Of a DNA stretch of 64,000 nt, positions 34,586 through 56,453 are shown one piece after another; position 1 is the first letter of the stretch, and every line of letters starts with the position of its first letter. The notes below the pieces were generated by a model. The model saw nothing but the letters and a program-made list of their open reading frames with translations, was not told the DNA's origin and searched no databases. Location: assembly GCA_003215175.1 (NCBI GenBank), contig QCKS01000005.1:1-64000 (forward strand). The letters are read 5' to 3'. A program made the translations under genes and the position numbers. Origin of the DNA: Acidimicrobiales bacterium AG-410-I20. GTDB lineage: Bacteria; Actinomycetota; Acidimicrobiia; Acidimicrobiales; MedAcidi-G1.

Positions 34586-37500
34586 TTAGTTGGTTGCGGC
34601 GTTCACAAGGTTTCCAAAGCGATGCAATGTGCGGCTGATTGCTTGTTCTTGGAGATACCAGCGGAGTTCAAGGCGGCCGCTAGATGTTACTGGCGCATCT
34701 ATGAGATGAATCTCTGCTGCAATTGCCGCTTGGCGAACAGGCTGAGTGGTGGTTCCTATAAGTCGAATGCGGCCAAATCTAGATGAAGAAAGTGATTCGG
34801 CAAATTCATTATTGCTTATTTCTTTTTCGTTGCTGACTTCATAGGACACACCGGTTCGGTTCACTGCGCTTAATACTCGCTGTACTTCTATTTCGTTAGC
34901 GTCGGAACTGATCCTGATAATGAGATTTGCGCGTGGTTGGTAACGGAGAATATTCGCTTCGCAAAAAAGATTTGATGGATCGTGTTCAACGGAGTAATAG
35001 TTCTCCCACCAGTAAGCATCATCTTGTTCTGCGGCAGAGAGTTCTATGGGTCCGGTGGGTTGCCATTTCCCTAGTTGAAGAAGGTAATCAGGTCCTCCTG
35101 TTTTTGCTCCAACTCCTATTGCCGAACGTTTCCATCCTCCAAATGGTTGTCTATTCACAATCGCTCCGGTGATATGCCGGTTGACATAAGCGTTACCTAC
35201 TTGAACTTTTTTAAGCCACTCTTCTATTTCCATTGGATCTAAGGAATGAATTCCTCCAGTTAGTCCATAGTCAACAGAGTTTTGCCATTCAATAGCTTCA
35301 TCTAAATTTGAGGCCTGCATCAGACCAAGAACCGGACCAAAACATTCTGTGTGATGAAATCGTGAGCCAGGTTTCACTCCCCCTTTGATCCCAGGTGTCC
35401 ATAGTTGCCCACTTTGATCAACTTGCTGGGGTTCAAGAAGCCAATACTCCCCTTCATCAAGTTTGGTAAGAGCATCTAATAGTTTCCCTGTTGCCGGGGC
35501 GATTAGAGGGCCAAGAACGGTGGATAATTCATGAGATGAGCCGACAGTAAGTGATTTAGCGGCATCAACGATTTGTCGGAGGAACCGTTCATCATTTGCT
35601 ACTGAACCAACAAGGATTCCAAGGCTAGCTGCTGAACATTTTTGTCCTTGATGACTAAAAGCAGAATGGATTAAGTCGGCGGCAGCTAAATCCAAATCTG
35701 CTTGTGGCGTAACGATAAGAGCGTTCTTTCCACTAGTTTCAGCTGAGAGATTCATTTCGGGTTTCCATGAGCGAAATAAGTCTGCTGTTTCTATTGACCC
35801 GGTCAAAATAACTCCATCTACAGAAGTAACTAAAGTTTTTCCGATGTCATCATCATGAGTTCGCACAAACTGTAAAAGATCTTTGGGGACTCCAGCTGCC
35901 CAGCAGGCTTCAGCGATTATTTCTGCACATCTTGGTGTTTCCGGGGCAGGTTTGAAAATTACGCCGTTCCCCGCTGCTAAAGCAGCAAGAACTCCTCCCG
36001 TAGGAATCGCGGTAGGAAAATTCCAGGGAGGAACCACCGCTACAACTCCTAAGGGCGTGAATTCTGCATATTTTACTTGATTTAGTTCTGCTGATTTCTC
36101 TGCATACCATCGTGCAAAATCTGCCGCCTCATTAATTTCTCCGTCTGCTTCCACCCATGTTTTTTTTGCTTCGTGGGCCATTGTTATAAAAAGGTCGTCT
36201 TTTCTTTTTAAGATCTCTTCTGCGACTCGGTGTAATACTTTTTGACGTTCTTGTATGTGGAGGTTTACCCAGTTCTCCTGAGCATTTTTTACTTTAGAAA
36301 TGCTTGTTTGTATTTCTTCTATAGAAGCACTGAACTCAGTTTTTACTTTTTGTGGGTTTAGTTGATGAGTGTTTTTTATCCACTCTTGTGTAAGTTCTTG
36401 AGTCGGATCGGTGTCAGGTTGGTTAAAGAAATTTTGGGAACTACTTGTTTTATCTGACTCTTTACGGCGTGAAGTGGAACTAACTTCCCATCGATTCATC
36501 ACTGCTTTTTGAAATTGATCAGCTTGGTTTAAGAATTCTTTGCTATCTGGTTTAAGGGTGAAGAGATGACGAAGGAAATTATCTTCAGAAGCGTTTTCTT
36601 CTAAACGTCTAAATAAGTAACTTATCGCTACGTCAAAATCAGAGCGTCCTACGATTGGTGTGTAGAGCAATAATCCATGGGTGTCGGCGTGAACTTCCCG
36701 AGCTTGTGCCGGTGCCATCCCTTGAAGCATTTCAAATTCAACCCGGTGTGCGACTCCGCGTTCTTCAGCTAATAAGTGAGTCCAAGCCACGTCAAAGAGA
36801 TTGTGGCTTGCAAGACCGATTCTGATTCCGTTCATTTGTTCGGCGTTTAAGACCCAGTCAAGACACCGTTTGTAGTTTGCATCTACTTCCATTTTGGTTT
36901 CGTAGGGGGCTTGGTTCCAGCCGTGGAGTGTTGCGTCTACTTTTTCCATCGCCAGATTTGCCCCTTTTACGAGACGTATTTTTATTTCTCCCCCACCTGT
37001 TTTTTGTCTTTGGTTTGCCCATTTTGTAAGTCGTTGGAGGGCGGGAAATGTGTCTGGTAGGTATGCCTGTAGGACTATCCCTGCTTCTATTGATCTCAGT
37101 TCAGGTTCATCAAGGAGTTTCATGAACGCACAGATAGTTAGTTCAAGGTCTCGGTATTCTTCCATGTCAAGATTGACAAAAGTTGGAGGACTTGTGGAGG
37201 CGGCATGGAGGTAAAGTTCTCGGAGTCTTTCTTCGATTCTTTTTAAAGTGTGATCAAAGGCCCATAAATTTATTTGGCTTGTGACTGAAGAAACCTTTAC
37301 TGATACGTAATTGATATCTGGGTCACTAATTAAAGAAAGAGTTTGTTGGAATCTTTTATCTGCTTCTCGTTCGCCAAGGACTGCTTCTCCGAGGAGGTTC
37401 ACGTTGCAGGCATACCCTTGGGCTTTGCGTTCTTTGAGGTGTTTGTGCATTGGTTCGTCTTCGGCGTCGACCACTAAATGACCTATTAGCGATCGCATGC

Positions 37501-37840
37501 GAAGACGGGCGAGGGGCATGACGAGTTTTGGGAGAAGTGGAGCTAGCCGAGCTCCTATCGAGAGCATTAGACGATCGACTGTGTTTAAGAATTTTGGGAG
37601 GTTTTTTTCTTTTCCTAGACGAAAGAGTTGATTGGCTGCTGCTTTATCGTCTCGGTGGCGAGCGACGCGATCAACAAAGTCCATAGTAAAGGCAACGCCG
37701 TTGGGGTCTGATATTAAAGCTGCTAGTTGATCTGACTGGCGACGTTCGCTTTTGGTTTCGGTTTGCTGTGTTTGATTCAGCCATCTAGCGACAAGAGTGA
37801 TGGTTTCATCTATTTTTAAAGCCGCTTCAGATTTTGACAC
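34586..37840 (-). CDS. putA: Bifunctional proline dehydrogenase / glutamate-semialdehyde dehydrogenase
   Basis: A 1084-residue PutA that turns proline into glutamate through pyrroline-5-carboxylate. The proline dehydrogenase barrel occupies about residues 80-460 (e.g. IRLVKGANLAMEK, and YTPIVGRSDFDVAISYLFRRLEEN with the FAD/proline-binding arginines). The aldehyde dehydrogenase half (about 510-990) has PWNFPTAIPTGG, TGSIETADLF, AETSGKNA and the catalytic Cys in HQGQKCSAA. There is no N-terminal DNA-binding helix, so it is not a self-regulating trifunctional PutA. Residues after ~1000 form an extra tail. Proline is a common osmolyte and nitrogen source. Confidence 0.93.
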   Translation of the reverse strand: MSKSEAALKIDETITLVARWLNQTQQTETKSERRQSDQLAALISDPNGVAFTMDFVDRVARHRDDKAAANQLFRLGKEKNLPKFLNTVDRLMLSIGARLAPLLPKLVMPLARLRMRSLIGHLVVDAEDEPMHKHLKERKAQGYACNVNLLGEAVLGEREADKRFQQTLSLISDPDINYVSVKVSSVTSQINLWAFDHTLKRIEERLRELYLHAASTSPPTFVNLDMEEYRDLELTICAFMKLLDEPELRSIEAGIVLQAYLPDTFPALQRLTKWANQRQKTGGGEIKIRLVKGANLAMEKVDATLHGWNQAPYETKMEVDANYKRCLDWVLNAEQMNGIRIGLASHNLFDVAWTHLLAEERGVAHRVEFEMLQGMAPAQAREVHADTHGLLLYTPIVGRSDFDVAISYLFRRLEENASEDNFLRHLFTLKPDSKEFLNQADQFQKAVMNRWEVSSTSRRKESDKTSSSQNFFNQPDTDPTQELTQEWIKNTHQLNPQKVKTEFSASIEEIQTSISKVKNAQENWVNLHIQERQKVLHRVAEEILKRKDDLFITMAHEAKKTWVEADGEINEAADFARWYAEKSAELNQVKYAEFTPLGVVAVVPPWNFPTAIPTGGVLAALAAGNGVIFKPAPETPRCAEIIAEACWAAGVPKDLLQFVRTHDDDIGKTLVTSVDGVILTGSIETADLFRSWKPEMNLSAETSGKNALIVTPQADLDLAAADLIHSAFSHQGQKCSAASLGILVGSVANDERFLRQIVDAAKSLTVGSSHELSTVLGPLIAPATGKLLDALTKLDEGEYWLLEPQQVDQSGQLWTPGIKGGVKPGSRFHHTECFGPVLGLMQASNLDEAIEWQNSVDYGLTGGIHSLDPMEIEEWLKKVQVGNAYVNRHITGAIVNRQPFGGWKRSAIGVGAKTGGPDYLLQLGKWQPTGPIELSAAEQDDAYWWENYYSVEHDPSNLFCEANILRYQPRANLIIRISSDANEIEVQRVLSAVNRTGVSYEVSNEKEISNNEFAESLSSSRFGRIRLIGTTTQPVRQAAIAAEIHLIDAPVTSSGRLELRWYLQEQAISRTLHRFGNLVNAATN

Positions 37841-37856
37841 TATTGGTAACTTTCGA

Positions 37857-38483
37857 TTAGCCCCTGTAGTCAGGGTTTTCCCAAACTATAAGTACTGCAT
37901 TATTTCCAACTGTTGGGTCGTCTAAATAATCAGGTATTGCTCCTCGAGCTTCAAATCCGTTTTGTAGTTGGAAACTAAGTGTTGGGTCATAGAGATCGCC
38001 CGATACAACTTTGTCTATGTATTCGTCAGCTGACATTGTGTCTAAATGTTCGGAGTATCCCGGTATGACTCCGCCGGCAACAATTCCTTTTTTTCCTAGT
38101 TTTCTTACTGCTTCTTTTCTCAACTCATAGAGTTGGTGGCCTATTCCTCTTTTGCGGTATTCCGGATTTACAGCAATTGTTACTCCGTAATACCAATCAC
38201 CTTCTGGGTTGTGATCGCCACCTCCAGCTGTTCCTGTTAGATCATCGAGTGAATGGTAAGCATCTTCGAAATTGAAATCTAATAGTAGGCCGACACCGAA
38301 ACCTATTGGTTTATCTCCATCAAGTGCTACAAAGCCGCCTTCGGGGAAAACTTTGCAGTATCCAACTATGTCTTCGTAGCTAAGTAGGTCTTCGGTGCCG
38401 ATTGATGAGAAGACCGTGTGTTCTATTTCCGCGAGTTGTTCAGCCCATTCAACTCTTATCGGGGCGTAGGTGATTTCATTCAT
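37857..38483 (-). CDS. GNAT N-acetyltransferase
   Basis: About 208 residues from the ATG at 38483, which overlaps the upstream stop (ATGAATGA); an ATG four codons earlier is also possible. The acetyl-CoA site is in VAINPEYRKRGIGHQLYELR-like sequence (VNPEYRKRGIGHQL). GYCKVFPEGGFVALDGDKPIGFGV is the first GNAT strand pair. It is co-oriented with the C45-type hydrolase before it and putA after it. Substrate unknown. Confidence 0.8.
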   Translation of the reverse strand: MNEITYAPIRVEWAEQLAEIEHTVFSSIGTEDLLSYEDIVGYCKVFPEGGFVALDGDKPIGFGVGLLLDFNFEDAYHSLDDLTGTAGGGDHNPEGDWYYGVTIAVNPEYRKRGIGHQLYELRKEAVRKLGKKGIVAGGVIPGYSEHLDTMSADEYIDKVVSGDLYDPTLSFQLQNGFEARGAIPDYLDDPTVGNNAVLIVWENPDYRG

Positions 38484-39570
38484 GGAATGGGACATGGACG
38501 TATTCGTTGAGGTTGGGTACTCCCCAAACCGCCCAGAAATCTAAGGTCTGTGGGCACATAATTGCTGCGCCACTTGACTCAATGTGATAGGGGTCTTTTG
38601 AAGTTCTACAGATGGCTTCAGGATCACGAGTTACCTCAATAAGGTCTTCTATGCTCAAGTTTTCTTTGGCTAGAAGTTCGGTGGCTCGAGATAGCCGATG
38701 TTCCGAGTTTGCTTTAATATTTAAGTCCCTTAGTGCCTCAACATGCTTTGCTTGATCCCAAAGAACATGGTTTGTGTGCACTAATGGTTCTTGTTCCAAA
38801 GTCTTGTAAGGACGTGTGGTAGGCATCGCTTCGACCATGTGTCCATTTCCTGTGGAGTCAAAAATTAGAAAGCTATGCGCTCCGGCGAGATCTGCTGTGA
38901 GAATCTCGTTTAATGCCTCGTCGGCTGAAGAAGTAGTTAGGGCTGCTCGTACGACGGATGGCCACATGACGCCTGGGCATCCATCTGTTGTGACCAAGTT
39001 ATTTATTCCGACACATACTCCGTGGCTATTCATTCCGATCTGGCCGAGACATCCGACTGTAGAGAATATGAGTGCAGAAGGGCTGCCATTTTCTGGCTGA
39101 ATTCTCATTAAGACGACATGGTCTGTTGCGGTGTCATGCATATCCCAAGTTTGGCCATATAGTCCTTGTCCGTTTGCTTTTGAATCGGGGACGATAAATG
39201 CGGTGCAGTCATCTTCAATAACCTCTGATGGGTATGTTCCTCCAAAAGTATTTCGGACGGTGTCTACAAAGTCAGTGAATCCTCCTACGATTACTGCTTC
39301 TGCTGGTGTGATGCCTGCGCCTTCAGCCATTGCGCACATTTCTGCGTAAAGTTCGGGTGAATGTTTTTCATGAGCGGGGAGACAGGATTCCGCTATCTCT
39401 AGGATTTCAGATTCATTTATTTCTTGTCCTGCCCAGAATTGGCCGCTGGCGAGATGAATACGTTCTCTTGTATAGATTTTTATTTCATCGGCATAGGTTG
39501 TTCCGTGTTGGTGCCCTATTTCCTCTGGGGAGCCTTTGAGGTCAAGAATACGAATTGGTGGGCGTTTCAT
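38476..39570 (-). CDS. C45-type peptidase/acyltransferase (penicillin acyltransferase-like)
   Basis: About 364 residues from the ATG at 39570; an in-frame TTG at 39606 is less likely. Ntn-hydrolase of the C45 acyl-CoA:6-aminopenicillanate acyltransferase type: GSPEEIGHQHG at the N-terminus, EVIEDDCTAFIV with the probable nucleophile Cys exposed by self-cleavage, GQTWDMHDT, and GMNSHGVCVGINNL. Bacterial members are mostly uncharacterised amide hydrolases or acyl transferases acting on amino acid or fatty amides. It overlaps the acetyltransferase gene, suggesting a linked acylation/deacylation role, which is inference. Confidence 0.82.
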   Translation of the reverse strand: MKRPPIRILDLKGSPEEIGHQHGTTYADEIKIYTRERIHLASGQFWAGQEINESEILEIAESCLPAHEKHSPELYAEMCAMAEGAGITPAEAVIVGGFTDFVDTVRNTFGGTYPSEVIEDDCTAFIVPDSKANGQGLYGQTWDMHDTATDHVVLMRIQPENGSPSALIFSTVGCLGQIGMNSHGVCVGINNLVTTDGCPGVMWPSVVRAALTTSSADEALNEILTADLAGAHSFLIFDSTGNGHMVEAMPTTRPYKTLEQEPLVHTNHVLWDQAKHVEALRDLNIKANSEHRLSRATELLAKENLSIEDLIEVTRDPEAICRTSKDPYHIESSGAAIMCPQTLDFWAVWGVPNLNEYVHVPFHE

Positions 39571-39598
39571 ATTCTGAATTCTCGCGTTGTTTTGGTCT

Positions 39599-39630
39599 AA
39601 GAGCAAACACCGTGGAATGAATATGCTCTT
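39599..39630. promoter_or_regulatory. Inverted repeat between C45-type gene and psuG
   Basis: AAGAGCA (39599-39605) and TGCTCTT (39624-39630) are exact inverted copies separated by 18 bases in the 99-base divergent gap. They could be an operator for either gene; the short arms make chance occurrence possible. Confidence 0.25.
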
Positions 39631-40589: not shown

Positions 40590-41309
40590 TCACAACTCGA
40601 GGGCGTATTCGCTTAAACGTTCATAAAGAGGTACTGCTTCTTCAATCACAGCGGTGAGATCTTCAGGGATAGTTACTTCTTTAGGTTCATAAGGTAAAAA
40701 TCCTGTGGAGGCGTGGACTCCGTGGTACCAATATTTTTCCCATACACCGTCTTCTGGCTTTGGCCCTGCAGGCCATGAAAGCATTGCTTCATCAAAAGAA
40801 ATGCCAATGTTTTCGCAAAATTTTTCTAATGCGTTACGTGGGTTTTTACGTAAAGTTGTAGCGTCTAGCACCACGGGAGTTTCACCTTCGCTAAGTATTT
40901 CTTCCATCAGATCAACTTGTGATTCAAGGCCCGTGTCTCCGAGCGTGGCGTCTTTCAAGTTCACAGCTAATGACGCCAACATTTCAGTCGGTTCGCGCAC
41001 TAATAAGACATTCACGCACTGCGAAAGAAACGATCGGTCCATTTCAATTAAGTGGTGCGCCATTTGTTTGAAGAAAACTACTGGTGTGCCATGATCGGCC
41101 AACATGATTTCTTCAGTTACTTGAGCTGGGTTTGGGTTTTGTGTTTTCAGCACTTCTTCTCGACCAGGATGCTCACGCCCAGTTACATTCAAGTAATGGG
41201 CGTAAAACGGTTCATCAAATACCGTTGTGTCTTGCCTCTCGCGGAAAGAATACATCAGAGCAGTGGAGATGTTTCTCGGCCCGGAGCAACAATTGATTCG
41301 TACTGTCAT
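40590..41309 (-). CDS. Sulfotransferase-like P-loop protein
   Basis: A 239-residue protein beginning with SGPRNISTALMYSF, a diverged sulfonucleotide (5'-phosphosulfate) loop, followed by FKQMAHHL and VLLVREPTEMLASLA, the 3'-phosphate-binding region. It would transfer a sulfuryl group or be a degenerate P-loop relative. It shares one base (TAATG, 41309) with the stop of the class IV aminotransferase upstream, so the two are tightly coupled. From memory, fusions of these two domain types occur in some larger proteins; a database check would be needed. Activity unproven. Confidence 0.7.
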   Translation of the reverse strand: MTVRINCCSGPRNISTALMYSFRERQDTTVFDEPFYAHYLNVTGREHPGREEVLKTQNPNPAQVTEEIMLADHGTPVVFFKQMAHHLIEMDRSFLSQCVNVLLVREPTEMLASLAVNLKDATLGDTGLESQVDLMEEILSEGETPVVLDATTLRKNPRNALEKFCENIGISFDEAMLSWPAGPKPEDGVWEKYWYHGVHASTGFLPYEPKEVTIPEDLTAVIEEAVPLYERLSEYALEL

Positions 41310-42220
41310 TACGATACTGATGCTGCCACTGCATCTTCGTAAAGTCCGCGAAGACGTTGCGTCATTGGACCAGGTGCCGATTCACCGATTGTTCGACCAT
41401 CTACTTCTGTAACTGGAGTTAAACCACCAAAAGTTCCAGTTACGAATGCTTCTTCTGCTGCATAAACATCTGTAAGTGAAAAGGGTGTTTGGCGAGTTGG
41501 GATTTCAGCCGCTTCAGCCGTTTCTAGAACTATCTGCCTTGTGATTCCATTGAGGTTGTACTGACCTGTTGATGTTTGTACGACACCATTACGGACTATG
41601 AAGAAATTTGTGGCGTTGCAGGTAGCGACTGCTCCTGTTGGGTCAAGCATCAGTGCCTCATCAGCTCCTGCATGAACTGCTTGAATTAACGCTATTACTT
41701 CATGCAATTTGGAATGACAGTTGAGTTGCTGATCCAACATGTCTGGTGCGGGTCGTCTAACTGTTGCGGTGAACAAGCTCACGCCTATATCTGCAACTTC
41801 AGGATCAGCTTTCTTGTGTTCAGCGATAATGACAATATTTGGCCCTCCAATAACGTTGGATGGGTGCTGGGAGGGTGTTTTTTTGTCTCCTCTAGTGATC
41901 ATTAGCCTGACGTGTACCCCATCGTCCATGTTGTTTCGGTCAATGGTTGATTGAAGAGCTTCGGTGACTTCTTGTTTCGTCAATCCCAGTTTTATGTCGG
42001 CTGCTGCTAATCCAGCAAAGAGCCGGTTGAGGTGTCGGTCTAAGAAGGCAAATTTTCCGTGATGAAGACGTATGCCTTCCCATATGCCGTCCCCGACCAA
42101 GAAACCACTATCAAATACAGAAACTTTTGCTTCATGTCGTGGGAAGAATTCCCCATTGATATAGATTTCTACTTTTTCATTTCGTTCGTCGCTAAGCGCT
42201 TGGTGTGTACTACGTGCCAT
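41309..42220 (-). CDS. Class IV PLP aminotransferase (branched-chain / D-amino acid type)
   Basis: A 303-residue fold-type IV enzyme. IYINGEFFPRHEAKVSVFDSGFLVGDGIWEGIR is the family start (shown in part: SVFDSGFLVGDGIWEGIR), the PLP Lys is in HSKLHEVIALIQA, and DEALMLDPTGAVATCNATNFF covers the cofactor phosphate site. Arg residues that distinguish branched-chain from D-amino acid or aminodeoxychorismate enzymes cannot be judged by eye. It lies 50 bases below a TPP enzyme and is coupled to a sulfotransferase-like gene. Confidence 0.85.
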   Translation of the reverse strand: MARSTHQALSDERNEKVEIYINGEFFPRHEAKVSVFDSGFLVGDGIWEGIRLHHGKFAFLDRHLNRLFAGLAAADIKLGLTKQEVTEALQSTIDRNNMDDGVHVRLMITRGDKKTPSQHPSNVIGGPNIVIIAEHKKADPEVADIGVSLFTATVRRPAPDMLDQQLNCHSKLHEVIALIQAVHAGADEALMLDPTGAVATCNATNFFIVRNGVVQTSTGQYNLNGITRQIVLETAEAAEIPTRQTPFSLTDVYAAEEAFVTGTFGGLTPVTEVDGRTIGESAPGPMTQRLRGLYEDAVAASVS

Positions 42221-42270
42221 GTAGTGAATCTATCCGTCGTTGAGCCAAGTAGTGATCTCGGACACCGCAA

Positions 42271-43917
42271 TTATCTTTCGTTTAATAAACGAGCTTGAGT
42301 TATTGATTGTTGAGGCGTAAGCATTTCAGGATCAACAACTAGATCAAGGACTGCTCCAGTTTTAGAACTCAAGGCATTATCGAATGCTGTTTTAAATTCT
42401 TCGATGTTGGCTACTCGCTCACTGTAGAAACCGTAGGCGCGAGCTATCGAAACAAAATCGGGGTTTTTGATATCTGTTCCTACTACACGCGCTGGGTATC
42501 GGCGTTCTTGATGCATCCGTATGGTTCCGTACATTGAGTTGTTGACAATGAGGACAATAGGTTGAGCTTCTTCTTGCATCGCACTTCCAAGTTCTTGCAT
42601 ATTCATTTGGAAATCTCCGTCGCCAGCGAAACAAACAACAACTCGTTCAGGAGCAGCAACTTTGGCTGATATCGCAGCAGGTAATCCATATCCCATGGTT
42701 CCGTTCTGTGGTGCTAATAGTCGGGCTTTAGAACCGTAATAGAAGAACTTGTTTGGCCAGACTGAAAAGTTTCCTGCCCCATTCGTAATAATTACATCTT
42801 CAGGAAGCACCTCTTGGAGGTACGCAGTAACAGCGGCCATGTCTACGCCAATGGTGGCTGCCGGAACTATATGTGTTGAAAGGAAACGGTTACGGGTTTC
42901 TTCTCGCCATAGCTCTCTTCCTTCTCCAAGGTTTGGCATTTCTAATAATTCGGCGATAGCTAAATTTGGGTTAGAGCGGATATGGAGATCTGCTTTAATA
43001 ACTTTGTCGAACTCTGCTTCCGAGGAGTGAACGTGAAGAATTTTTTGTTTTCTATCTTGAAAGAGGGTGTAGGCGTCTGTCGTCATTTCTCCAAACCGAA
43101 CTCCAACTGCAAGTAACACATCGGCTTCATCCAAGGTTTGTCGAACCGCTGGAGGCATCGCTACCCCTGCTTCCCCCGCATAACAAGAACTGTTGTTGTT
43201 CATTAAGTCTTGTCGGCGAAAACCAACCACCACTGGGAGATTTTGTTTCTCAGCAAAGCGACAAAGATTTTCTCGCCCGGTTGCTGTCCATCCGCCTCCT
43301 CCTACCAAAAGAACAGGCTTTTTTGCTTCTTGCAGGTTGGCCATTATTTCTTGAACTTCTTGTTCTGAGATTGAATTATCTTTAATCGGAGTAACCGGGA
43401 TAATCTTTTTTTCTGTCTCTTCTCTTAGTACGTCTTCAGGTAAGGCAATTACGACTGGGCCCGGCCGATCCGAAGTAGCGACTGTAAATGCATGATTAAT
43501 TATTTCAGGGATTTGATCGGGGTGAGTAACTTCAGTTACCCACTTTGCAACCCCTCCAAAGAAAGCGGTGTAATCCATTTCTTGGAATGCTTCGTACCCT
43601 TGATGGCTTGTAGGAACTTGGCCAATAAAAAGAATTAGTGGGGTGGATCCTTGAGCGGCAGTGTGAACACCAATTGAGGCATTTGTCGCTCCTGGGCCTC
43701 TGGTGACAAAGCAGATGCCAGGTTGACCAGTTAGTCGCCCATATGCTTCAGCCATGTAAGCCGCTCCACCTTCTTGGCGGCATCCAATAAGACGTATTTG
43801 GTCAGATTTTTCATATAAAGCATCTAAAACTTCTAAATAGGACTCTCCTGGTACTGCAAATGCTGTATTAACTCCGTGTGCTACGAGTCCTTCTACTAAA
43901 ACGTGACCTCCATTCAT
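42271..43917 (-). CDS. TPP-dependent acetolactate synthase-like enzyme
   Basis: About 548 residues from the ATG at 43917, which has GGAAAGGA before it and overlaps the stop of a small upstream gene by ATGA. N-terminal TPP domain with the activating Glu (GCRQEGGAAYMAEAYGR) and GPGATNAS; C-terminal TPP/Mg site FAGDGDFQMNMQEL...NNSMYGTIR. It is family-level similar to acetolactate synthase large subunits, but no small regulatory subunit is adjacent and no isoleucine/valine genes are near. A 2-oxoacid decarboxylase or carboligase for a catabolic step is more likely here. Confidence 0.85.
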   Translation of the reverse strand: MNGGHVLVEGLVAHGVNTAFAVPGESYLEVLDALYEKSDQIRLIGCRQEGGAAYMAEAYGRLTGQPGICFVTRGPGATNASIGVHTAAQGSTPLILFIGQVPTSHQGYEAFQEMDYTAFFGGVAKWVTEVTHPDQIPEIINHAFTVATSDRPGPVVIALPEDVLREETEKKIIPVTPIKDNSISEQEVQEIMANLQEAKKPVLLVGGGGWTATGRENLCRFAEKQNLPVVVGFRRQDLMNNNSSCYAGEAGVAMPPAVRQTLDEADVLLAVGVRFGEMTTDAYTLFQDRKQKILHVHSSEAEFDKVIKADLHIRSNPNLAIAELLEMPNLGEGRELWREETRNRFLSTHIVPAATIGVDMAAVTAYLQEVLPEDVIITNGAGNFSVWPNKFFYYGSKARLLAPQNGTMGYGLPAAISAKVAAPERVVVCFAGDGDFQMNMQELGSAMQEEAQPIVLIVNNSMYGTIRMHQERRYPARVVGTDIKNPDFVSIARAYGFYSERVANIEEFKTAFDNALSSKTGAVLDLVVDPEMLTPQQSITQARLLNER

Positions 43918-44078
43918 TTGCCACGTCCTTTCCCCAAGAGAAAAACTATGCATCCTAAAGTAAAGAATGACGAAGCGATAATTCCTAATGGATCATGTTC
44001 TCTTATCGACGCAATCAAGAAAAAGGCCGCGCTTCCTAAGAAAAGCCACCATGATGCCATTTCGGTCTTGTAATTCAC
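43914..44078 (-). CDS. 54-residue two-span membrane protein
   Basis: A small frame from the GTG at 44078 to the TGA at 43914-43916, whose stop overlaps the start of the TPP enzyme (ATGA). The product has two hydrophobic segments (WWLFLGSAAFFLIAS and GIIASSFFTLGCIVFLL) joined by a short REHDP loop and ends GKGRGK. An in-frame ATG at 44060 would give 48 residues. The coupled overlap and the alternation of membrane segment, loop and basic tail argue it is real. Function unknown; possibly a leader or small partner in the operon. Confidence 0.65.
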   Translation of the reverse strand: MNYKTEMASWWLFLGSAAFFLIASIREHDPLGIIASSFFTLGCIVFLLGKGRGK

Positions 44079-45082: not shown

Positions 45083-45801
45083 AAAGGCCTTTGATCGGTA
45101 TCACCGGGAAACGTAGATTCGGCCGTGACCTTGCCGGGAACTGGTCTTCGATGTCTGATAGTTCTGCTGATGTATTTTGGGTGATGTATGCCGAAGGAAT
45201 TCTTTCTGCCGGGGGCTTTCCAGTGTTCTTACCTATTGATGTTGACCCTGTTGATGCTGTAGATAATTTGGATGGTTTGTTGCTTACCGGCGGCACTGAT
45301 ATTGATCCTAAGCACTATGGGGAAGAACCCGAGCATTATGGAAAAACATCCGCCACTGATCTGTTTCCTTATGAACCGATGCGTGATGAATTTGAATTCG
45401 GTTTACTTGACGCTGTTGGCGAAACTTCGTTACCTGTTCTTGGTATCTGCCGTGGCCACCAAGTAATCAATGTTCATGCTGGTGGTTCACTAAACCAGCA
45501 TGTGCCTGAACATGCTGCTTTTGACCAAACGATAACTACGAGATCTCATGAGGTCTTTTTTGAAAGCGGGTCAGAGCTCTCTCGCCTTTACGGTTCTAAA
45601 AGTGAAGTCAATTCTTTCCACCACCAAACAGTGAATCGTTTAGGAGAAGGGCTTGAAGCTACGGCTTATGCAAAAGATGGAGCTATTGAAGGCCTAGAAC
45701 ATACAGATTTGCCTATTTTGTCAGTTCAATGGCATCCTGAGATGCTTCCTACGCGTCCGACTGATCCAATTTTTTCTTGGCTTGTTCGTAACGCCGGTTA
45801 G
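45079..45801 (+). CDS. Class I glutamine amidotransferase-like hydrolase (C26, PuuD-like)
   Basis: A 240-residue peptidase C26 family protein, like gamma-glutamyl-gamma-aminobutyrate hydrolase. The nucleophile Cys is in VLGICRGHQVINVHAGGSL, the catalytic His/Glu in SVQWHPEM, and LLLTGGTDIDPKHYGEE is the family's GG motif. It hydrolyses a gamma-glutamyl amide, for instance in polyamine breakdown. Its neighbour is a MaoC-like dehydratase, so the actual substrate may differ. Its stop overlaps the stop of the convergent Xsc-like gene by 4 bases. Confidence 0.88.
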   Translation: MKRPLIGITGKRRFGRDLAGNWSSMSDSSADVFWVMYAEGILSAGGFPVFLPIDVDPVDAVDNLDGLLLTGGTDIDPKHYGEEPEHYGKTSATDLFPYEPMRDEFEFGLLDAVGETSLPVLGICRGHQVINVHAGGSLNQHVPEHAAFDQTITTRSHEVFFESGSELSRLYGSKSEVNSFHHQTVNRLGEGLEATAYAKDGAIEGLEHTDLPILSVQWHPEMLPTRPTDPIFSWLVRNAG

Positions 45802-47564
45802 GTATAGTCCGAATATTTTTTGAGATAACGAACAGGTGTTGAAAGAGCATCTTTTCTAAACGGGGCTCCTAACTCTTTAGTACACATAACCTCAATGACG
45901 GTCGTTGTTCCATCTTCCATCTGATTTTTAATTGCTTCATCTAATGCTGGTCCTACTTCTTCAAGGTCGTCAACACGTACACCCTCTGCGCCCATTGCTT
46001 TAGCAATTTCTGAATAGTTTTCTTCCCCGTCTAATTCTCCAGCTACGAATCTACGTCCATAGAAATCAACCTGGTTCTTTTTTTCTGCACCCCATTGTCG
46101 ATTGTGGAAAACAACTGCTGTCACTGGGATATTGTGCCGAACTGAGGTCATAATTTCGCTCATACTCATAGCCCATGCTCCATCTCCGGCATAGGCAATA
46201 GCTGGACGATCAGGTGCTGCTGCTTTCGCTCCAATAATTGTAGGTAACGCATATCCACAGTTACCCCAGCTCATCGCTGCGAAAAAGGATCGAGGTTCTT
46301 CGAATCTTAGATAACTATTAGAAATTGAATTGATGTTGCCTATATCGGTCGACACCATTGCTCGAGCCGGCATAGCTTTCTCCAATTCTCTTAATGCCTG
46401 CCGTGGATGCAACCAGTTATCTTCTTCGTCTATTGCTTCTTTGATCATTTCAATGCTGAAGTCATCGGTTTCATTTGTCCAATCGCTGAGTTCTTCTTCC
46501 CAAGCCGCTTTCTCTTCAGCGACCTGTATCAACCGATCTTCGCGAGTGCTATCGCTTTTTAGGTCACGTTTCTCTAATCGTTTAGTTAATGCCTGTGCTG
46601 CTGCTCCTGCATCTCCGCAAATCCCAACAGATATTTTCTTTACTAAGCCCAGCATTTTTTGGTCTGCATCAATTTGAATAATTTTCGCGTCGGTCGGCCA
46701 ATAATCCATATCGTGTTGAGGAAGAGTGCCAAATGGTCCAAGTCTCGTACCTAAAGCAAGGACTACATCAGCTCGGCTTATAAGTTTCATTGCTGCTTTA
46801 GAGCCTTGATATCCAAGCGGTCCACACCATTGTGGGTGACTAGCCGGAAATGAGTCATTGTGTAAATAACTGTTTACTACCGGACAACCTAAACGTTCGG
46901 CTAAGGCGACTGCGTCATCAACGGCATCGCCCATAACTACACCCCCACCAGAGATCATCACTGGAAACTCGGCTGTAGAGAGAAGATCCGCGGCTTCGTC
47001 TAGTGTTCGTTCACCGCCGGGTCCTCGGTCTAAAATCATCGGCTCAGGGATCTCAACATCGATGTCGCCATAAAAGCGATCGCGGGGAATATTTAATTGA
47101 GTGGGGCCAATTTCTGACATCGCGCGATCAAAACATCGTGCGGTAATTTCTGCCATTCGATGTTCGTTGTTGATATGGCCTTGATATTTAACAAACTCTT
47201 GGAACATAGGTAATTGATTTGCTTCTTGAAATCCACCCAAACCGATTCCCATCGTTCCAGTTTCTGGGGTGATTATGACTACTGGACTATGTGCCCAGAA
47301 AGCTGCGGCGATAGCAGTTACACAGTTTGAAATACCTGGACCATTTTGGCCAATTACTACTCCATGGCGACCACTAACTCGTGCATAACCATCTGCCATA
47401 TGTGCAGCACCTTGTTCATGAACTACTGGGATAAAACGAATACCAGCAGGTTCAAAAATGTCCATCGCATCCATAAACGCTGACCCCATAATTCCAAAAA
47501 TGGTGTCTACCTCATTGGCTACTAGCGTTTCAACAAATGCTTCACTTGGAGTCATACGAGTCAT
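45798..47564 (-). CDS. xsc: Sulfoacetaldehyde acetyltransferase-like TPP enzyme
   Basis: A 588-residue TPP enzyme closely matching Xsc (EC 2.3.3.15), which turns sulfoacetaldehyde and phosphate into acetyl phosphate and sulfite in taurine and other C2 sulfonate breakdown. Visible are TPSEAFVETLVANEVDTIFGIMGSAFMDAMD, the activating Glu (VHEQGAAHMADGYARV), GIGLGGFQEANQLPMFQ and the TPP site AYAGDGAWAMSMSEI (first motif quoted only in part: VDTIFGIMGSAFMDAMD). It ends an operon with an M20 deacetylase (18 bases upstream) and ectoine hydrolase. Xsc context usually includes a taurine aminotransferase or dehydrogenase and pta, absent nearby, so a related activity is possible. Confidence 0.82.
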   Translation of the reverse strand: MTRMTPSEAFVETLVANEVDTIFGIMGSAFMDAMDIFEPAGIRFIPVVHEQGAAHMADGYARVSGRHGVVIGQNGPGISNCVTAIAAAFWAHSPVVIITPETGTMGIGLGGFQEANQLPMFQEFVKYQGHINNEHRMAEITARCFDRAMSEIGPTQLNIPRDRFYGDIDVEIPEPMILDRGPGGERTLDEAADLLSTAEFPVMISGGGVVMGDAVDDAVALAERLGCPVVNSYLHNDSFPASHPQWCGPLGYQGSKAAMKLISRADVVLALGTRLGPFGTLPQHDMDYWPTDAKIIQIDADQKMLGLVKKISVGICGDAGAAAQALTKRLEKRDLKSDSTREDRLIQVAEEKAAWEEELSDWTNETDDFSIEMIKEAIDEEDNWLHPRQALRELEKAMPARAMVSTDIGNINSISNSYLRFEEPRSFFAAMSWGNCGYALPTIIGAKAAAPDRPAIAYAGDGAWAMSMSEIMTSVRHNIPVTAVVFHNRQWGAEKKNQVDFYGRRFVAGELDGEENYSEIAKAMGAEGVRVDDLEEVGPALDEAIKNQMEDGTTTVIEVMCTKELGAPFRKDALSTPVRYLKKYSDYT

Positions 47565-47582: not shown

Positions 47583-48755
47583 TCAATGCGTTTTCGTTAA
47601 TACTTCTAGCCCCAGACGTTCTAAGACAGATAAGCAGTCTTTTAAATCAGAAATTGAAACGAATTCGTCTGGCCGATGAGCAACTTCAATATCACCTGGT
47701 CCCCATACAACAGCTGGCATGCCCGCAGCTTGGTAAAGACCGGCTTCTGTCCCATAGGAGACAACATCAAACTCAGATTCTCCTAGTAGTTCGGTCATAA
47801 GTGAAAGAGCAGAGGATTCGGCATGGTATTCAAGCCCATCCACTTCACATACTTTTTCGGTCTCAATTGAAGCTTCCGGATAAATTGTTTTCATTTCTAA
47901 CAAAAGTTCATTTGTGAAGGCTGCTAATTGTTCATGCACATATTCTGCGTCCGATCGCTGGATAGGTCTCATCTCCCAGTCAAATTTGCAGTGCTCTGCG
48001 ACTATGCACCGAGCTTGACCTCCTTCGATTGTTCCAACACTCATGGTTGTTGAAGGCGGTTGATACGGACTGTTTTCAGGAGCTCTGGAAACCATTTCCA
48101 TTTTTAGTTCCATAAGACGATTAATGAAGCGGGCAGCATACTGAACGGCGTTTACCGCTTTTTCTGGTTCAGAGCTATGACCATTTAATCCTTTTATTGT
48201 TGTGGCATATTCATAACAACCTTTGTGCGCAGCGATTGCTTTTAATCCAGTGGGTTCTCCGATGATGACTGCGTCAGGTTGAATATTTTTTTCTTTTAAA
48301 TCTTTCAAAAGAATTGGGGCGCCGTGAAAACCATCTTCTTCATCAAATGTAAGGGCGATATGTAAAGGCTTTATCAAATCAAGCGAAGCAAACCATGGCG
48401 CTAGAGCTAGTACACATGCAATAAACCCTTTCATGTCTGCAGAGCCGCGCCCAAAGATGCAATCGTTTCGCTGATCAGCTTGAAATGGTGGTGTTGTCCA
48501 GTCGTTTGCATTAACTGGGACTACATCTGAGTGACCTGAGAGTACTATTCCTCCGTTTATTTCTGGCCCGAAAGAAGCAAAGAGGTTTGCCCTTTCTCCA
48601 TCGGGGCTATGGGTAAGAGAGACTTTTGCTCCAAGGTCGCTTAGATACTTCTCTGCATAGGTGATGAGATCAAGATTTGAGGTAAGAGCCACCGTTTCAA
48701 AACTGATGAGTTCTTTGAGAATGTCTAAAGTTTTTGTTAATGCCTGGTCGTTCAT
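47583..48755 (-). CDS. M20 deacetylase (ArgE-like), probable acetyl-diaminobutyrate deacetylase
   Basis: A 390-residue metallohydrolase with the M20 zinc ligands: SGHSDVVPV, GRGSADMKGFIA, the catalytic FDEEDGFHG and IGEPTG, then HRPDEFV near the end. It resembles acetylornithine deacetylase. It overlaps the ectoine hydrolase gene by ATGA-type 4 bases, so its likely substrate is N-acetyl-L-2,4-diaminobutyrate, the ectoine hydrolase product; the usual DoeB belongs to a different peptidase family, which makes this an alternative solution for the same step. Inference from context. Confidence 0.83.
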   Translation of the reverse strand: MNDQALTKTLDILKELISFETVALTSNLDLITYAEKYLSDLGAKVSLTHSPDGERANLFASFGPEINGGIVLSGHSDVVPVNANDWTTPPFQADQRNDCIFGRGSADMKGFIACVLALAPWFASLDLIKPLHIALTFDEEDGFHGAPILLKDLKEKNIQPDAVIIGEPTGLKAIAAHKGCYEYATTIKGLNGHSSEPEKAVNAVQYAARFINRLMELKMEMVSRAPENSPYQPPSTTMSVGTIEGGQARCIVAEHCKFDWEMRPIQRSDAEYVHEQLAAFTNELLLEMKTIYPEASIETEKVCEVDGLEYHAESSALSLMTELLGESEFDVVSYGTEAGLYQAAGMPAVVWGPGDIEVAHRPDEFVSISDLKDCLSVLERLGLEVLTKTH

Positions 48756-49936
48756 TTCTTTACAAATAACTTTCTTGGGAAATCAGCAAATGTTTCTGCT
48801 GGTCCATCTTGAGCAATCATAAAGCTTTCGGTAATTTCCATACCCCAGTCATCCATCCAAAGTCCGGGCATGAAGTGAAAAGTCATCCCAGGTTTTAATT
48901 CAGACTCATCTGTTCCGCGAAGGGAAATTGTTCTCTCACCCCAGTCAGGGGGATAACTCAGTCCTATTGGATAACCACAGCGAGCATCGCGTTCAATACC
49001 AGCACGAGCAAGAGTTTCATGAAGCGCATTTGCTATATCGCAAGCCCGATTGCCGGGTCGAGCTGCTTCAAGGCCAGCTTCAAGGCCTTCTACAAGCGCT
49101 TTTTCGGCATCAACCATTTTTTGAGGAGGTTCACCTAAAAACACAGATCGGCAGAGTGGCACGTGATACCTACGATGTACGCCAGCGATTTCAAAGAATG
49201 TTCCTTCACCGGATTTGAATGGCTTATCGTCCCAAGTTATGTGCGCGGCCGATGCGTCTACTCCAGTAGGCATGAGGGGAACAATGGCAGGGTAATCCCC
49301 GCCAAACTCTTCTGTTCCAGCGATTGAAGTGTGGTACACCTCCGCAACTAAATCATTTTTTCTCATTCCTGGTTCAATTAGTTCCAAAATTCGGTGATGC
49401 ATTTTTTCCACTATGCGTGCAGCTCGACGCATGTAGATAAGTTCTTGCTCAGATTTAATTGTGCGTTGCCAATTTATAAGTCCAGTGGCATCTACGATCT
49501 GTGCTTGAGGTAAACCTGCGAGAAGATGGATATGAGAGGCTGCTGAATAATAGTAATTGTCTAATTCCACTCCAATGACTGATTGCCCGAAACGTGAATC
49601 GGAGAGAAGAGCCGCTAAATGCTGATATGCATGTTTTTCTGTCGACATTACGTGGTCGTCTGAGTATGCAATAACGTGACGTTCATCCATGTATACGGTC
49701 CGTAAAGCACCTTTGGCGTCCATTCCGCGGCCCCACCAGATTGGGTCATCGTCATGAGTGACTAATACGGCTTGAGGGGTATAGAAAGACCATCCGTCAT
49801 AGCCAGTTAACCAAGACATGTTTGACGGATCGGCCGAAACAAGAACGTCAATGTCTTTGCTTTCCATTGCGGAACGCACTTTCGCAAGGCGAGTTGCATA
49901 TTCTTCTCGGCTAAAATCAAGTTCTACGTCAGGCAT
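48752..49936 (-). CDS. doeA: Ectoine hydrolase
   Basis: About 394 residues from the ATG at 49936, chosen because GGAG lies 5 bases before it and DoeA proteins begin near here. M24 (creatinase/aminopeptidase P) fold with the DoeA-specific DPSNMSWLTGYDGWSFYTPQAV and WWGRGMDAKGA. It opens the ectoine ring to N-acetyl-2,4-diaminobutyrate. Ectoine is a widespread marine osmolyte. The downstream M20 deacetylase and TPP enzyme follow in the same operon; no ectoine transporter is seen nearby. Confidence 0.9.
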   Translation of the reverse strand: MPDVELDFSREEYATRLAKVRSAMESKDIDVLVSADPSNMSWLTGYDGWSFYTPQAVLVTHDDDPIWWGRGMDAKGALRTVYMDERHVIAYSDDHVMSTEKHAYQHLAALLSDSRFGQSVIGVELDNYYYSAASHIHLLAGLPQAQIVDATGLINWQRTIKSEQELIYMRRAARIVEKMHHRILELIEPGMRKNDLVAEVYHTSIAGTEEFGGDYPAIVPLMPTGVDASAAHITWDDKPFKSGEGTFFEIAGVHRRYHVPLCRSVFLGEPPQKMVDAEKALVEGLEAGLEAARPGNRACDIANALHETLARAGIERDARCGYPIGLSYPPDWGERTISLRGTDESELKPGMTFHFMPGLWMDDWGMEITESFMIAQDGPAETFADFPRKLFVKK

Positions 49937-49981
49937 GTGCACTCCAGTGTTTTCATTTGAGTTCTGTTCCTTATCGCAACG

Positions 49982-50040
49982 TAGCCTGATTAGGGGTTGT
50001 CTGGCTAGAGGGGAACAAACCAAAATACTTAATCAGGCTA
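49982..50040. promoter_or_regulatory. 11-base inverted repeat between ectoine hydrolase and oxoprolinase
   Basis: TAGCCTGATTA (49982-49992) and TAATCAGGCTA (50030-50040) are perfect inverted copies with 37 bases between, in the 119-base divergent gap between doeA (49936) and the oxoprolinase start (50056). Arm centres are 48 bases apart. It could be a pair of binding sites for one regulator, or a stem in the plus-strand leader close to the AGAAGG ribosome site at 50045-50050. Confidence 0.55.
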
Positions 50041-54917: not shown

Positions 54918-56453
54918 TTAATAAAACCAGGGAGGCTTTGGACCTTTACCAGCTGCAGCTTCGGGATATCTCATAGCTAAGTCGTTAGCTATTGGTTCTC
55001 TGCCAGTGGAGCGGAGACGGTCAAGATAAGCAGGTAGTTGTCCCCAAACATGGAAAGGTCCGCCTTCTTGGAGAACTACGTCATGCGGGTCCATATCATG
55101 GATGGAAGATGCGAGCATCTCTTCTTTCCATTCCTTTAGTCGGTTAGAAGCAGAAGCAACTATTTCTAATTCTGTTTTAGCCAGATCGTTTTGTAAATGG
55201 GGGTCTGAAGTGAGATCAAACAACATTTCTTCGGGGAAACAGTGGTATCCATCGTGACGGGTGTTCATATAAAGCCAATTTTCCCAGCGCAAACTTCTTT
55301 GCACTGTCCACGCCGCCGCGGAAAGCACTAAAGAGTCCCTTCCAGAAGTTCCATCTTGTTGTCCTGTCCCATTTTTGAGTGAGTCCGCGAACGAAACCCC
55401 ATCCCAGGATTCTGGAACTTGAGCTCCAGCTAATTCAAGAATTGAGGCGGCGAGGTCTACTTGGTAATGATTCCCTGTGTCGGCTCCTCCATGAGAAGCT
55501 CCTTTGAGTTCAGGCCATCGAATAATTCCTGGCAGATGATGGGTGTATTCATCTGCCGTCTGATGATCACAGTAGACACCTAATTCTCCAAAATTTTCCC
55601 CATGGTCTGACGAAATGACAACTGCTGTGTCGTCAATTACTCCTTGTTCATCTAACTCGTTCATCAATTTTCCAACCATGGTGTCAGCTCGTACGATTCC
55701 GGTGTCATAGCCGTCAAACATGCGGTCAATATCCTCAAGAGTCTGTAATGTCGGTGACATTAGTGGGAAGCGTGAAAAATATTTCGAGATGTCGCTATCT
55801 GGGTCAAAGCCAAGAGTTTCAGAAGCTGAGTGTGGGCCAGCAAGTTTTTGATGTTTTTCTAGAATTTCTTGTGTTATCCAATTGGGCCGATGATCACCTA
55901 AGTTTTCTGCCATTTCTTCTGAAGCGGTGTAGGGGGTATGTGGATCCCATACATGGACATGAAGAAACCAAGAATCTCGTTTAGCGTTGCGCTTTAGCCA
56001 TTCAAGCGCGTAAGGAGTTACTCCTTCGCTGAAGTAGGTGTTGTATCCGTCTTGTATAACTTCATTGAAACCTGAATACCAGTGCATAGCGGAATGCCTC
56101 TGCGCAAAAACACTTATTGTCGCAGTCCAAATTTTTTGGCGGGAGAGAACTGAGGCGAAACTATGAAAAGCGCGAGGTGATTGAAAACCCCGTCTTAGTC
56201 CTTCGCTAAACGGGTCAGCTGCTGTTCCTCCATGTCCAACTGCGCCGGTATGGATTCCAAACATTCCGGTCTGTAACGCTGACCTAGAGGGTAGACAGGG
56301 AGAATCTGAGGTGTATAGACCCTCAAGTCGTACGCCTTCTTTTGCTAATTCATCCATGTTCGGACTTGTTGGACGTTCATACCCATAGCAGCCGAGATGA
56401 TCAGGTCTCAGCGTATCAATATCTATCCAAATCATTCTGAAACTATCTGTCAT
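54918..56453 (-). CDS. Sulfatase (formylglycine type)
   Basis: A 511-residue alkaline phosphatase-fold sulfatase. The DIDTLRPDHLGCYGY metal-binding start and SPCLPSRSALQTG, with C53-x-P-S-R, the site converted to formylglycine, are intact; AVVISSDHGENFGELGVYCDH supplies the C-terminal metal ligands. No clear signal peptide is seen, suggesting a cytoplasmic enzyme. Substrate is unknown; choline-O-sulfate, aryl and sugar sulfates are possibilities. It is the first gene of the pair with creatinase and diverges from glpD. The maturation enzyme is not in the window. Confidence 0.88.
   Translation of the reverse strand: MTDSFRMIWIDIDTLRPDHLGCYGYERPTSPNMDELAKEGVRLEGLYTSDSPCLPSRSALQTGMFGIHTGAVGHGGTAADPFSEGLRRGFQSPRAFHSFASVLSRQKIWTATISVFAQRHSAMHWYSGFNEVIQDGYNTYFSEGVTPYALEWLKRNAKRDSWFLHVHVWDPHTPYTASEEMAENLGDHRPNWITQEILEKHQKLAGPHSASETLGFDPDSDISKYFSRFPLMSPTLQTLEDIDRMFDGYDTGIVRADTMVGKLMNELDEQGVIDDTAVVISSDHGENFGELGVYCDHQTADEYTHHLPGIIRWPELKGASHGGADTGNHYQVDLAASILELAGAQVPESWDGVSFADSLKNGTGQQDGTSGRDSLVLSAAAWTVQRSLRWENWLYMNTRHDGYHCFPEEMLFDLTSDPHLQNDLAKTELEIVASASNRLKEWKEEMLASSIHDMDPHDVVLQEGGPFHVWGQLPAYLDRLRSTGREPIANDLAMRYPEAAAGKGPKPPWFY

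Follow-up and report, generated by a model that had tools for sequence, protein, structure and literature searches.

A predicted sulfotransferase and an aminotransferase-like protein lacking the catalytic lysine: a candidate two-protein module in Acidimicrobiales and other bacteria

Introduction

Class IV (fold type IV) enzymes such as the branched-chain aminotransferases (BCATs; Protein Data Bank (PDB) entries 5cm0/5e25 and 5mqz) carry an active-site Lys, Tyr and Glu, the lysine being the residue that forms the Schiff base with pyridoxal 5'-phosphate (PLP). In an aminotransferase-like protein of Variovorax paradoxus (7z79) the lysine is replaced by Asn, and an N174K mutant of it is deposited as 9j32; we found these two PDB entries and no paper on the protein. 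The sulfotransferase domains of CurM and of the Synechococcus olefin synthase (OLS) (4gbm, 4gox) are parts of polyketide synthases. A precedent for replacement of the catalytic lysine is provided by the ColD, E1 and SpnQ 3-dehydratases, in which the lysine is a His and the reaction is a hydroxyl elimination dependent on pyridoxamine 5'-phosphate (PMP) (PMC8987622). Here we describe a locus of Acidimicrobiales bacterium AG-410-I20 (GCA_003215175.1, contig QCKS01000005.1, positions 1 to 64,000; hereafter the window) in which a gene encoding a free-standing predicted sulfotransferase (ST) abuts one encoding a class IV aminotransferase-fold protein (AT) that lacks the catalytic lysine.

The two genes are the last of four minus-strand open reading frames (ORFs) between 40590 and 44078, which encode, in order, a small hydrophobic protein, a thiamine diphosphate (ThDP or TPP) enzyme, AT and ST. 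The original prediction, made from the letters of the window, had read the four as an operon with coupled starts, and the layout it described is present in full. An ATGA at 43914-43917 overlaps the small ORF stop with the TPP enzyme start at 43917 (two in-frame ATGs, at 43953 and 43917, could serve, the latter more likely), the AT stop and ST start share one base at 41309 (TAATG), and a 50-base gap separates the TPP enzyme gene from that of AT. What is known already consists of the fold families and the structure of one relative. In the open literature we found no account of the ST-AT pair or of the lysine-less clade described below, and in the text available PF19798, the Pfam family of ST, turned up only within lists of Pfam families.

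Results

AT has an aminotransferase fold but not the Schiff-base lysine

AT scores 135.7 bits against PF01063 (Aminotran_4; cut-off 28.5) but falls below every NCBIfam aminotransferase cut-off listed, the best being NF006185 (branched-chain aminotransferase; 246.8 bits against a cut-off of 363). The AlphaFold2 (AF2) model of AT has a mean predicted local distance difference test (pLDDT) value of 89. In structure comparison the best solved relative is 7z79 (Z 35.0, 50% identity), other class IV aminotransferases giving Z scores of about 30. AT and the V. paradoxus protein thus belong to one family, both having Asn at the lysine site. The BCATs share the fold, 36-39% identity and the phosphate-cup positions with AT, but their active-site Lys, Tyr and Glu are N167, K171 and T200 in AT. 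In the alignment the AT segment LNCHSKL stands opposite IKSLNYL of the solved BCATs.

ATs linked to ST carry one of two motifs at this site, LNCHSKLHE-like (Asn) or KIHHNNLINN (His), and every readable ST-linked copy has Asn or His in the lysine column; four truncated copies (L051, L059, L075 and L076) could not be read there and were counted as neither. Over 149 rows the column held 57 Asn, 44 His and 48 Lys (comparison rows), seven duplicate rows having been removed before the column counts and the tree. At an independent column, W47, all Asn and His rows have Trp and the lysine rows Phe or Tyr (Phe in the solved BCATs). The other class IV enzymes of the same genome and of five family relatives that align with AT keep the lysine. 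Because these same-genome controls retain it and the W47 column agrees, the loss cannot be put down to the genome, the assembly or the aligner. An alignment error at the site was also rejected, as phmmer, BLASTP and MAFFT agree, the controls align with Lys and the N174K substitution of 9j32 was made by its depositors at this very Asn. BLASTP was one column off for AAKG-type rows, which have one extra residue. In two genomes of genus g2 (G156 and G096) a second class IV aminotransferase with its lysine intact lies about 6 kb from the AT-ST pair.

The label "amino acid aminotransferase" given by the original prediction therefore survives as a description of fold only, since no NCBIfam aminotransferase cut-off is passed and the catalytic lysine is missing; as a claim for a working lysine-type enzyme it is not supported. 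AT was likewise rejected as the housekeeping BCAT, as it fails the BCAT cut-off and its own genome encodes other, lysine-bearing class IV enzymes.

ST is a predicted PAPS-type sulfotransferase

ST scores 172.6 bits against PF19798 (Sulfotransfer_5; cut-off 23.2), and its AF2 model (pLDDT 95.4) finds as closest solved folds the OLS (Z 14.4) and CurM (Z 14.2) sulfotransferase domains together with tyrosylprotein sulfotransferases having bound adenosine 3',5'-bisphosphate (PAP). The superposition on 4gox (Z 14.4) gives 3.6 A over 212 residues. By sequence also the CurM and OLS domains are the nearest solved proteins (E 1e-7 and 8e-7). Alignment of 47 ST sequences showed P11, R12, S15, T16, K81 and R105 to be invariant and S113 to be at least 90% conserved. 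We take the PRNIST loop and the R105/S113 pair, which have the P-R-x-x-S-T form and the Arg-to-Ser spacing of eight of such enzymes, to be the sites that bind 3'-phosphoadenosine 5'-phosphosulfate (PAPS), as in SULT and other sulfotransferase structures. Hence, the P-loop protein is predicted from its sequence and modelled fold to be a PAPS-type sulfotransferase that would catalyze PAPS-dependent transfer. A kinase or other P-loop family, the possibility that would have undone the original call, was ruled out by the Pfam match and the structure comparison.

AT and ST occur together

Among 198 genomes of the order, any PF19798 match was found in 42 and a match of more than 140 bits in 27, the best score outside those 27 being 80 bits. 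AT (E<=1e-60) was found in exactly the same 27 genomes, which are spread over nine families. In 26 of the 27 the two genes are direct neighbours on the same strand; in the remaining genome (G077) they are on different contigs. A Fisher test of this co-occurrence gave 7e-34, a value that overstates the significance because relatives are not independent. The AT limits were chosen to exclude canonical enzymes (the best of which reached 1e-81 in the named genomes) and were 1e-60 for the order, 1e-105 for Bacteroidota and 1e-84 for Pseudomonadota.

The Bacteroidota class sample behaved in the same manner: 14 of the 247 genomes have AT, and these are the same 14 that have an ST of more than 140 bits. 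The genes are adjacent in 12, 1.5 kb apart in G348 and on different contigs in G201; one further genome (G458), with an ST score of 19.8 bits, has no AT match. AT was found in 41 of 398 Pseudomonadota genomes, always without the lysine (40 Asn, 1 His), and in 28 of these ST lies within 1.5 kb.

A scan of named genomes matched at least 593 stretches, 585 of which encode ST relatives, and the best 80 loci were kept. In 61 of these 80 AT is adjacent on the same strand, in one planctomycete (L056) the two are fused, and in 18 there is no AT in the stretch; 17 of the 18 genomes hold AT elsewhere, with Asn or His at the site. The L056 fusion, of 539 residues, has both Pfam domains over their cut-offs and answers the search for fused sulfotransferase and aminotransferase domains that the original prediction had proposed as a check. 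The plant chloroplast 'BCAT-like' proteins At3g05190/At5g27410 appear also to be fusions of an ST-like N-terminal part to a class IV aminotransferase-like part; literature searches by these locus names gave nothing. Overlaps of four bases or one base between the ST and AT genes are common among the named loci. Gene order follows the type of AT, the Asn type lying upstream of ST and the His type downstream of it (27 of 28 labelled cases). Such frequent adjacency of AT and ST greatly exceeds what chance would give.

No third gene family was widely recurrent across phyla when ORFs of at least 70 residues round the 80 named loci were clustered and the 40 largest clusters listed (these were not annotated singly). 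On reading, the large clusters were the two genes themselves, frames antiparallel to them, or stretches common to a few related genomes.

The lysine-less ATs form one clade with its own conserved residues

In a tree of 61 rows all Asn and His rows fell on one side of a branch supported at 100/100, with the Asn clade at 100/99 and the His clade at 99/99. This tree left out five long-branch or distant lysine rows and included the lysine-site column itself. The Asn and His rows grouped likewise in an earlier, quick tree of 66 rows (SH-aLRT 97). These trees indicate that the lysine was lost once, the Asn and His types being sister groups of single origin. The clade is present in Actinomycetota, Bacteroidota, Balneolota, Planctomycetota, Pseudomonadota, Poribacteria and other phyla.

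The positions that we take to form the cofactor phosphate cup (the Arg, GIT and TGT elements) are kept: R66 and T227 are 100% conserved and T263 is 93% conserved in the Asn type (93-95% overall). The Glu that presumably contacts N1 of the cofactor is Thr (T200) in the Asn type and is retained in the His type, and the Asn type has K171 in place of the active-site Tyr. Twelve residues that are rare in canonical enzymes are fixed in both types: N14, R28, W47, M98, H103, K113, T115, E134, K136, D163, D193 and N202. K136 is 100% conserved in the clade, and K113 lies in a loop that the alignment shows to be shorter than in canonical enzymes. Several plasmid copies of AT have K113 and lack K136.

Discussion

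A proposed lysine-independent mechanism

We propose that ST and AT form a widespread two-protein module in which a PAPS-dependent ST and a lysine-less AT-like partner would both work on a single small molecule, with chemistry that needs no lysine, a reading that we hold to be reasonably probable though well short of assured. ST would transfer the sulfo group of PAPS onto a small substrate. The AT-like protein would bind either this substrate or the sulfo-transfer product in a PLP/PMP-type or phosphate/sulfate-binding pocket. It may then catalyze a step such as elimination or hydrolysis by means of its Asn or His together with the Lys113/Lys136/Glu134/His103 cluster, and transamination through an internal aldimine would not occur. 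CurM and OLS use sulfation to provide a leaving group, and by analogy the pair might sulfate and then eliminate. Any likeness of AT to ColD, E1 and SpnQ is a shared trick rather than descent. Those enzymes are also aminotransferase relatives with a replaced catalytic lysine, and they provide a precedent in another fold for conversion of an aminotransferase to a lyase, but they are of PLP fold type I (the aspartate aminotransferase type) with Lys changed to His, act on nucleotide sugars and have no sulfotransferase partner, whereas the window AT is a class IV fold with Asn. The recurrence of the pair across many phyla points to a two-protein enzyme system and away from a usual pathway of amino-acid metabolism.

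Several observations weigh against this proposal. The AF2 model of AT is of low confidence right at residues 164-168, the lysine site. One Bacteroidota genome (G377) has an ST of 118.9 bits and no AT match, and 13 of the 41 Pseudomonadota ATs have no ST within 1.5 kb. Related ATs (48-56% identity) occur in 20 plasmid records, and the eight contexts that were read have no ST, with amino-acid ATP-binding cassette (ABC) or tripartite ATP-independent periplasmic (TRAP) transporters, chloride channels and MmgE/PrpD genes nearby. Finally, although the window's own genome encodes an adenosine 5'-phosphosulfate (APS) kinase, so that PAPS can be made, so do many others (162 of the 198 genomes of the order have one), and thus its presence says little about PAPS use; one pair-bearing genome (G096), possibly incomplete, gave no APS kinase match.

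Seven of the eight plasmid copies examined gave an alignable AT row and all seven are Asn; neither an ST nor a His-type AT was found in the plasmid collection, which consists of plasmid records and not host chromosomes. The plasmid neighbourhoods suggest an independent catabolic role. Because the Pseudomonadota and plasmid copies include some lacking ST, the AT-like protein does not need a neighbouring ST in order to act, and it probably has a chemistry of its own. The plasmid ATs of Agrobacterium, Pseudomonas savastanoi, Paracoccus and Pantoea (L212, L213, L214 and L216) have amino-acid ABC transporters, chloride channels or MmgE/PrpD genes as neighbours.

Alternative explanations

The ubiquity of the lysine loss in the ST-linked copies read, the further loss of the N1-contacting Glu in the Asn type, and the overlapping genes and single fusion would all suit a catalytically dead AT-like protein that serves as a scaffold or allosteric subunit to stabilize or regulate ST. 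We consider this unlikely, as the replacement was fixed as Asn or His and has a strictly kept H-S-K or H-N-N after it, a new set of charged residues became fixed elsewhere in the protein, and copies lacking an adjacent ST persist in Pseudomonadota and on plasmids. The near-absolute conservation of Lys113 (98-100%) and Lys136, which are absent or rare in canonical enzymes, and the intact phosphate cup could instead mean that the lysine has been relocated and that AT is still a PLP transaminase or lyase feeding ST an amino or oxo acid. This seems to us quite unlikely given the shortened loop that holds K113 and the plasmid copies that lack K136; moreover, that N174K was made in the V. paradoxus relative suggests that the wild-type protein forms no usual aldimine.

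Two further explanations draw on neighbouring genes. The operon of the original prediction, in which the membrane protein, the TPP enzyme, an ordinary aminotransferase and the sulfotransferase would serve one sulfated amino-acid-derived compound, agrees with the coupled starts in the window and with the five other genomes of its family (f1): the TPP gene adjoins the pair in four (G054, G128, G096 and G156), homologues of the small ORF are near it in three (G128, G096 and G156) and Xsc, a sulfoacetaldehyde acetyltransferase, lies within several kb in the same four as the TPP gene. However, in the fifth (G181), from the third genus of the family, AT and ST stand alone, the TPP gene being absent from the 20-kb stretch, and the 15 other stretches of the order that were examined have neither the small ORF nor Xsc; relatives of the TPP enzyme in two of these genomes (G084 and G149) are about 7 kb or more from the pair. 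Together with the missing AT lysine this makes the four-gene view very unlikely, although the locus may make or break a sulfated amino-acid-derived compound. The presence of Xsc also raises a sulfonate route in which the AT-like protein would present an enamine (2-aminoacrylate) or PMP ketimine, the carbon of which ST would sulfonate from PAPS to give cysteate, a precursor of taurine- or 2,3-dihydroxypropane-1-sulfonate (DHPS)-type sulfonates. A PAPS-dependent sulfotransferase of this sort, acting on 2-aminoacrylate, figures among the steps of a diatom metabolic model (PMC7990286), and the cysteate reading thus rests on that step and on the Xsc neighbourhood in one family. Xsc is a degradation enzyme, and the pair has no Xsc nearby in the other 16 stretches of the order; we regard this route as very unlikely. 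A broader form, in which the pair would be a new enzyme class, the lysine-independent class IV PLP/PMP-fold protein giving a reactive enamine or ketimine that ST sulfonates from PAPS, possibly on carbon, so that a genetically unassigned PAPS-to-sulfonate (e.g., cysteate) route would extend over many phyla, is in our estimate very improbable.

Whatever its reaction, the proposed module bears on annotation. Branched-chain or D-amino-acid transaminase is the usual annotation of a class IV aminotransferase, and lysine loss in a whole clade, much of it tied to one sulfotransferase family, makes many such annotations doubtful. The pair is a small, cloneable two-gene system. Once its product is identified, a sulfur metabolite would be attributable to many genomes (the one scan gave at least 585 candidate ST relatives), and it would become plain how a PLP fold operates, or is put to another use, in the absence of its lysine.

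Neighbouring genes and feature coordinates

The TPP enzyme call of the original prediction was right by fold, the N, M and C domains of TPP enzymes all being matched, and the protein scores 720.3 bits against NF006052/PRK08199 (cut-off 539). As a core member of the system it was rejected, since it is beside the pair in two genera only, and the same holds for the small membrane protein; both are lineage-specific additions. The small ORF homologues match the window protein at 40-46% and lie before the TPP gene or between it and AT; none was detected in the G054 or G181 stretches, and the window protein has no Pfam match. Since the four-gene set is kept in two genera while G181 and the 15 other stretches of the order lack the small ORF, a four-gene pathway could be only local. 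Gene-order conservation, the other check put forward with the original prediction, hence gave a divided answer: the ST-AT order is kept across phyla, and the four-gene order is not.

Coordinates of the features of the window (numbering of the 64,000-nucleotide stretch; an empty strand cell means that none was recorded)
Feature	Position	Strand	Evidence
ST, PAPS-type sulfotransferase (predicted), 239 aa, PF19798 Sulfotransfer_5	40590..41309	-	Pfam score, fold match
ST residues 11-16 (PRNIST), presumed PAPS 5'-phosphosulfate loop	41262..41279	-	P11, R12, S15 and T16 invariant in 47 sequences
ST R105-S113, presumed PAPS 3'-phosphate-binding pair, spacing 8	40971..40997	-	conservation in 47 sequences; region aligned to CurM and OLS
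AT, class IV aminotransferase-fold protein without catalytic lysine, 303 aa	41309..42220	-	PF01063, 7z79 match
AT Asn167 codon at the PLP Schiff-base lysine place	41720..41722	-	phmmer alignment to 5cm0/5e25/5mqz, N opposite the BCAT lysine
AT K113-T115 (K-x-T after TRG), signature of the lysine-less clade	41876..41884	-	K113 98-100%, T115 98-100%; canonical enzymes have G and mostly E/D
ThDP (TPP) enzyme, PRK08199/NF006052 type, accessory lineage-specific neighbour	42271..43917	-	NF006052 score
Small hydrophobic (membrane-like) protein, 54 aa, GTG start, accessory	43914..44078	-	translation, neighbour homologues
Xsc sulfoacetaldehyde acetyltransferase, second TPP enzyme	45798-47564	-	TIGR03457, 995 bits, cut-off 676
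PutA-like ORF	34586-37840		
Ectoine hydrolase DoeA	48752-50023		
Sulfatase-family protein	54918-56453	-	PF00884, 137.5 bits; below NCBIfam arylsulfatase cut-offs
Fusion of hydantoinase/oxoprolinase A and B parts, 1200 aa	50056-53658	+	distantly like caprolactamase subunits
C45-family autoproteolytic acyltransferase/hydrolase	38476-39606	-	NF040521, 196 bits over 85

Along with Xsc, the same stretch holds the PutA-like ORF, DoeA and an M20 deacetylase, a group looking like an osmolyte-degradation island. The sulfatase-family protein may hydrolyse a sulfate ester. The gene for the C45-family protein is in the same place in G054, G128 and G096.

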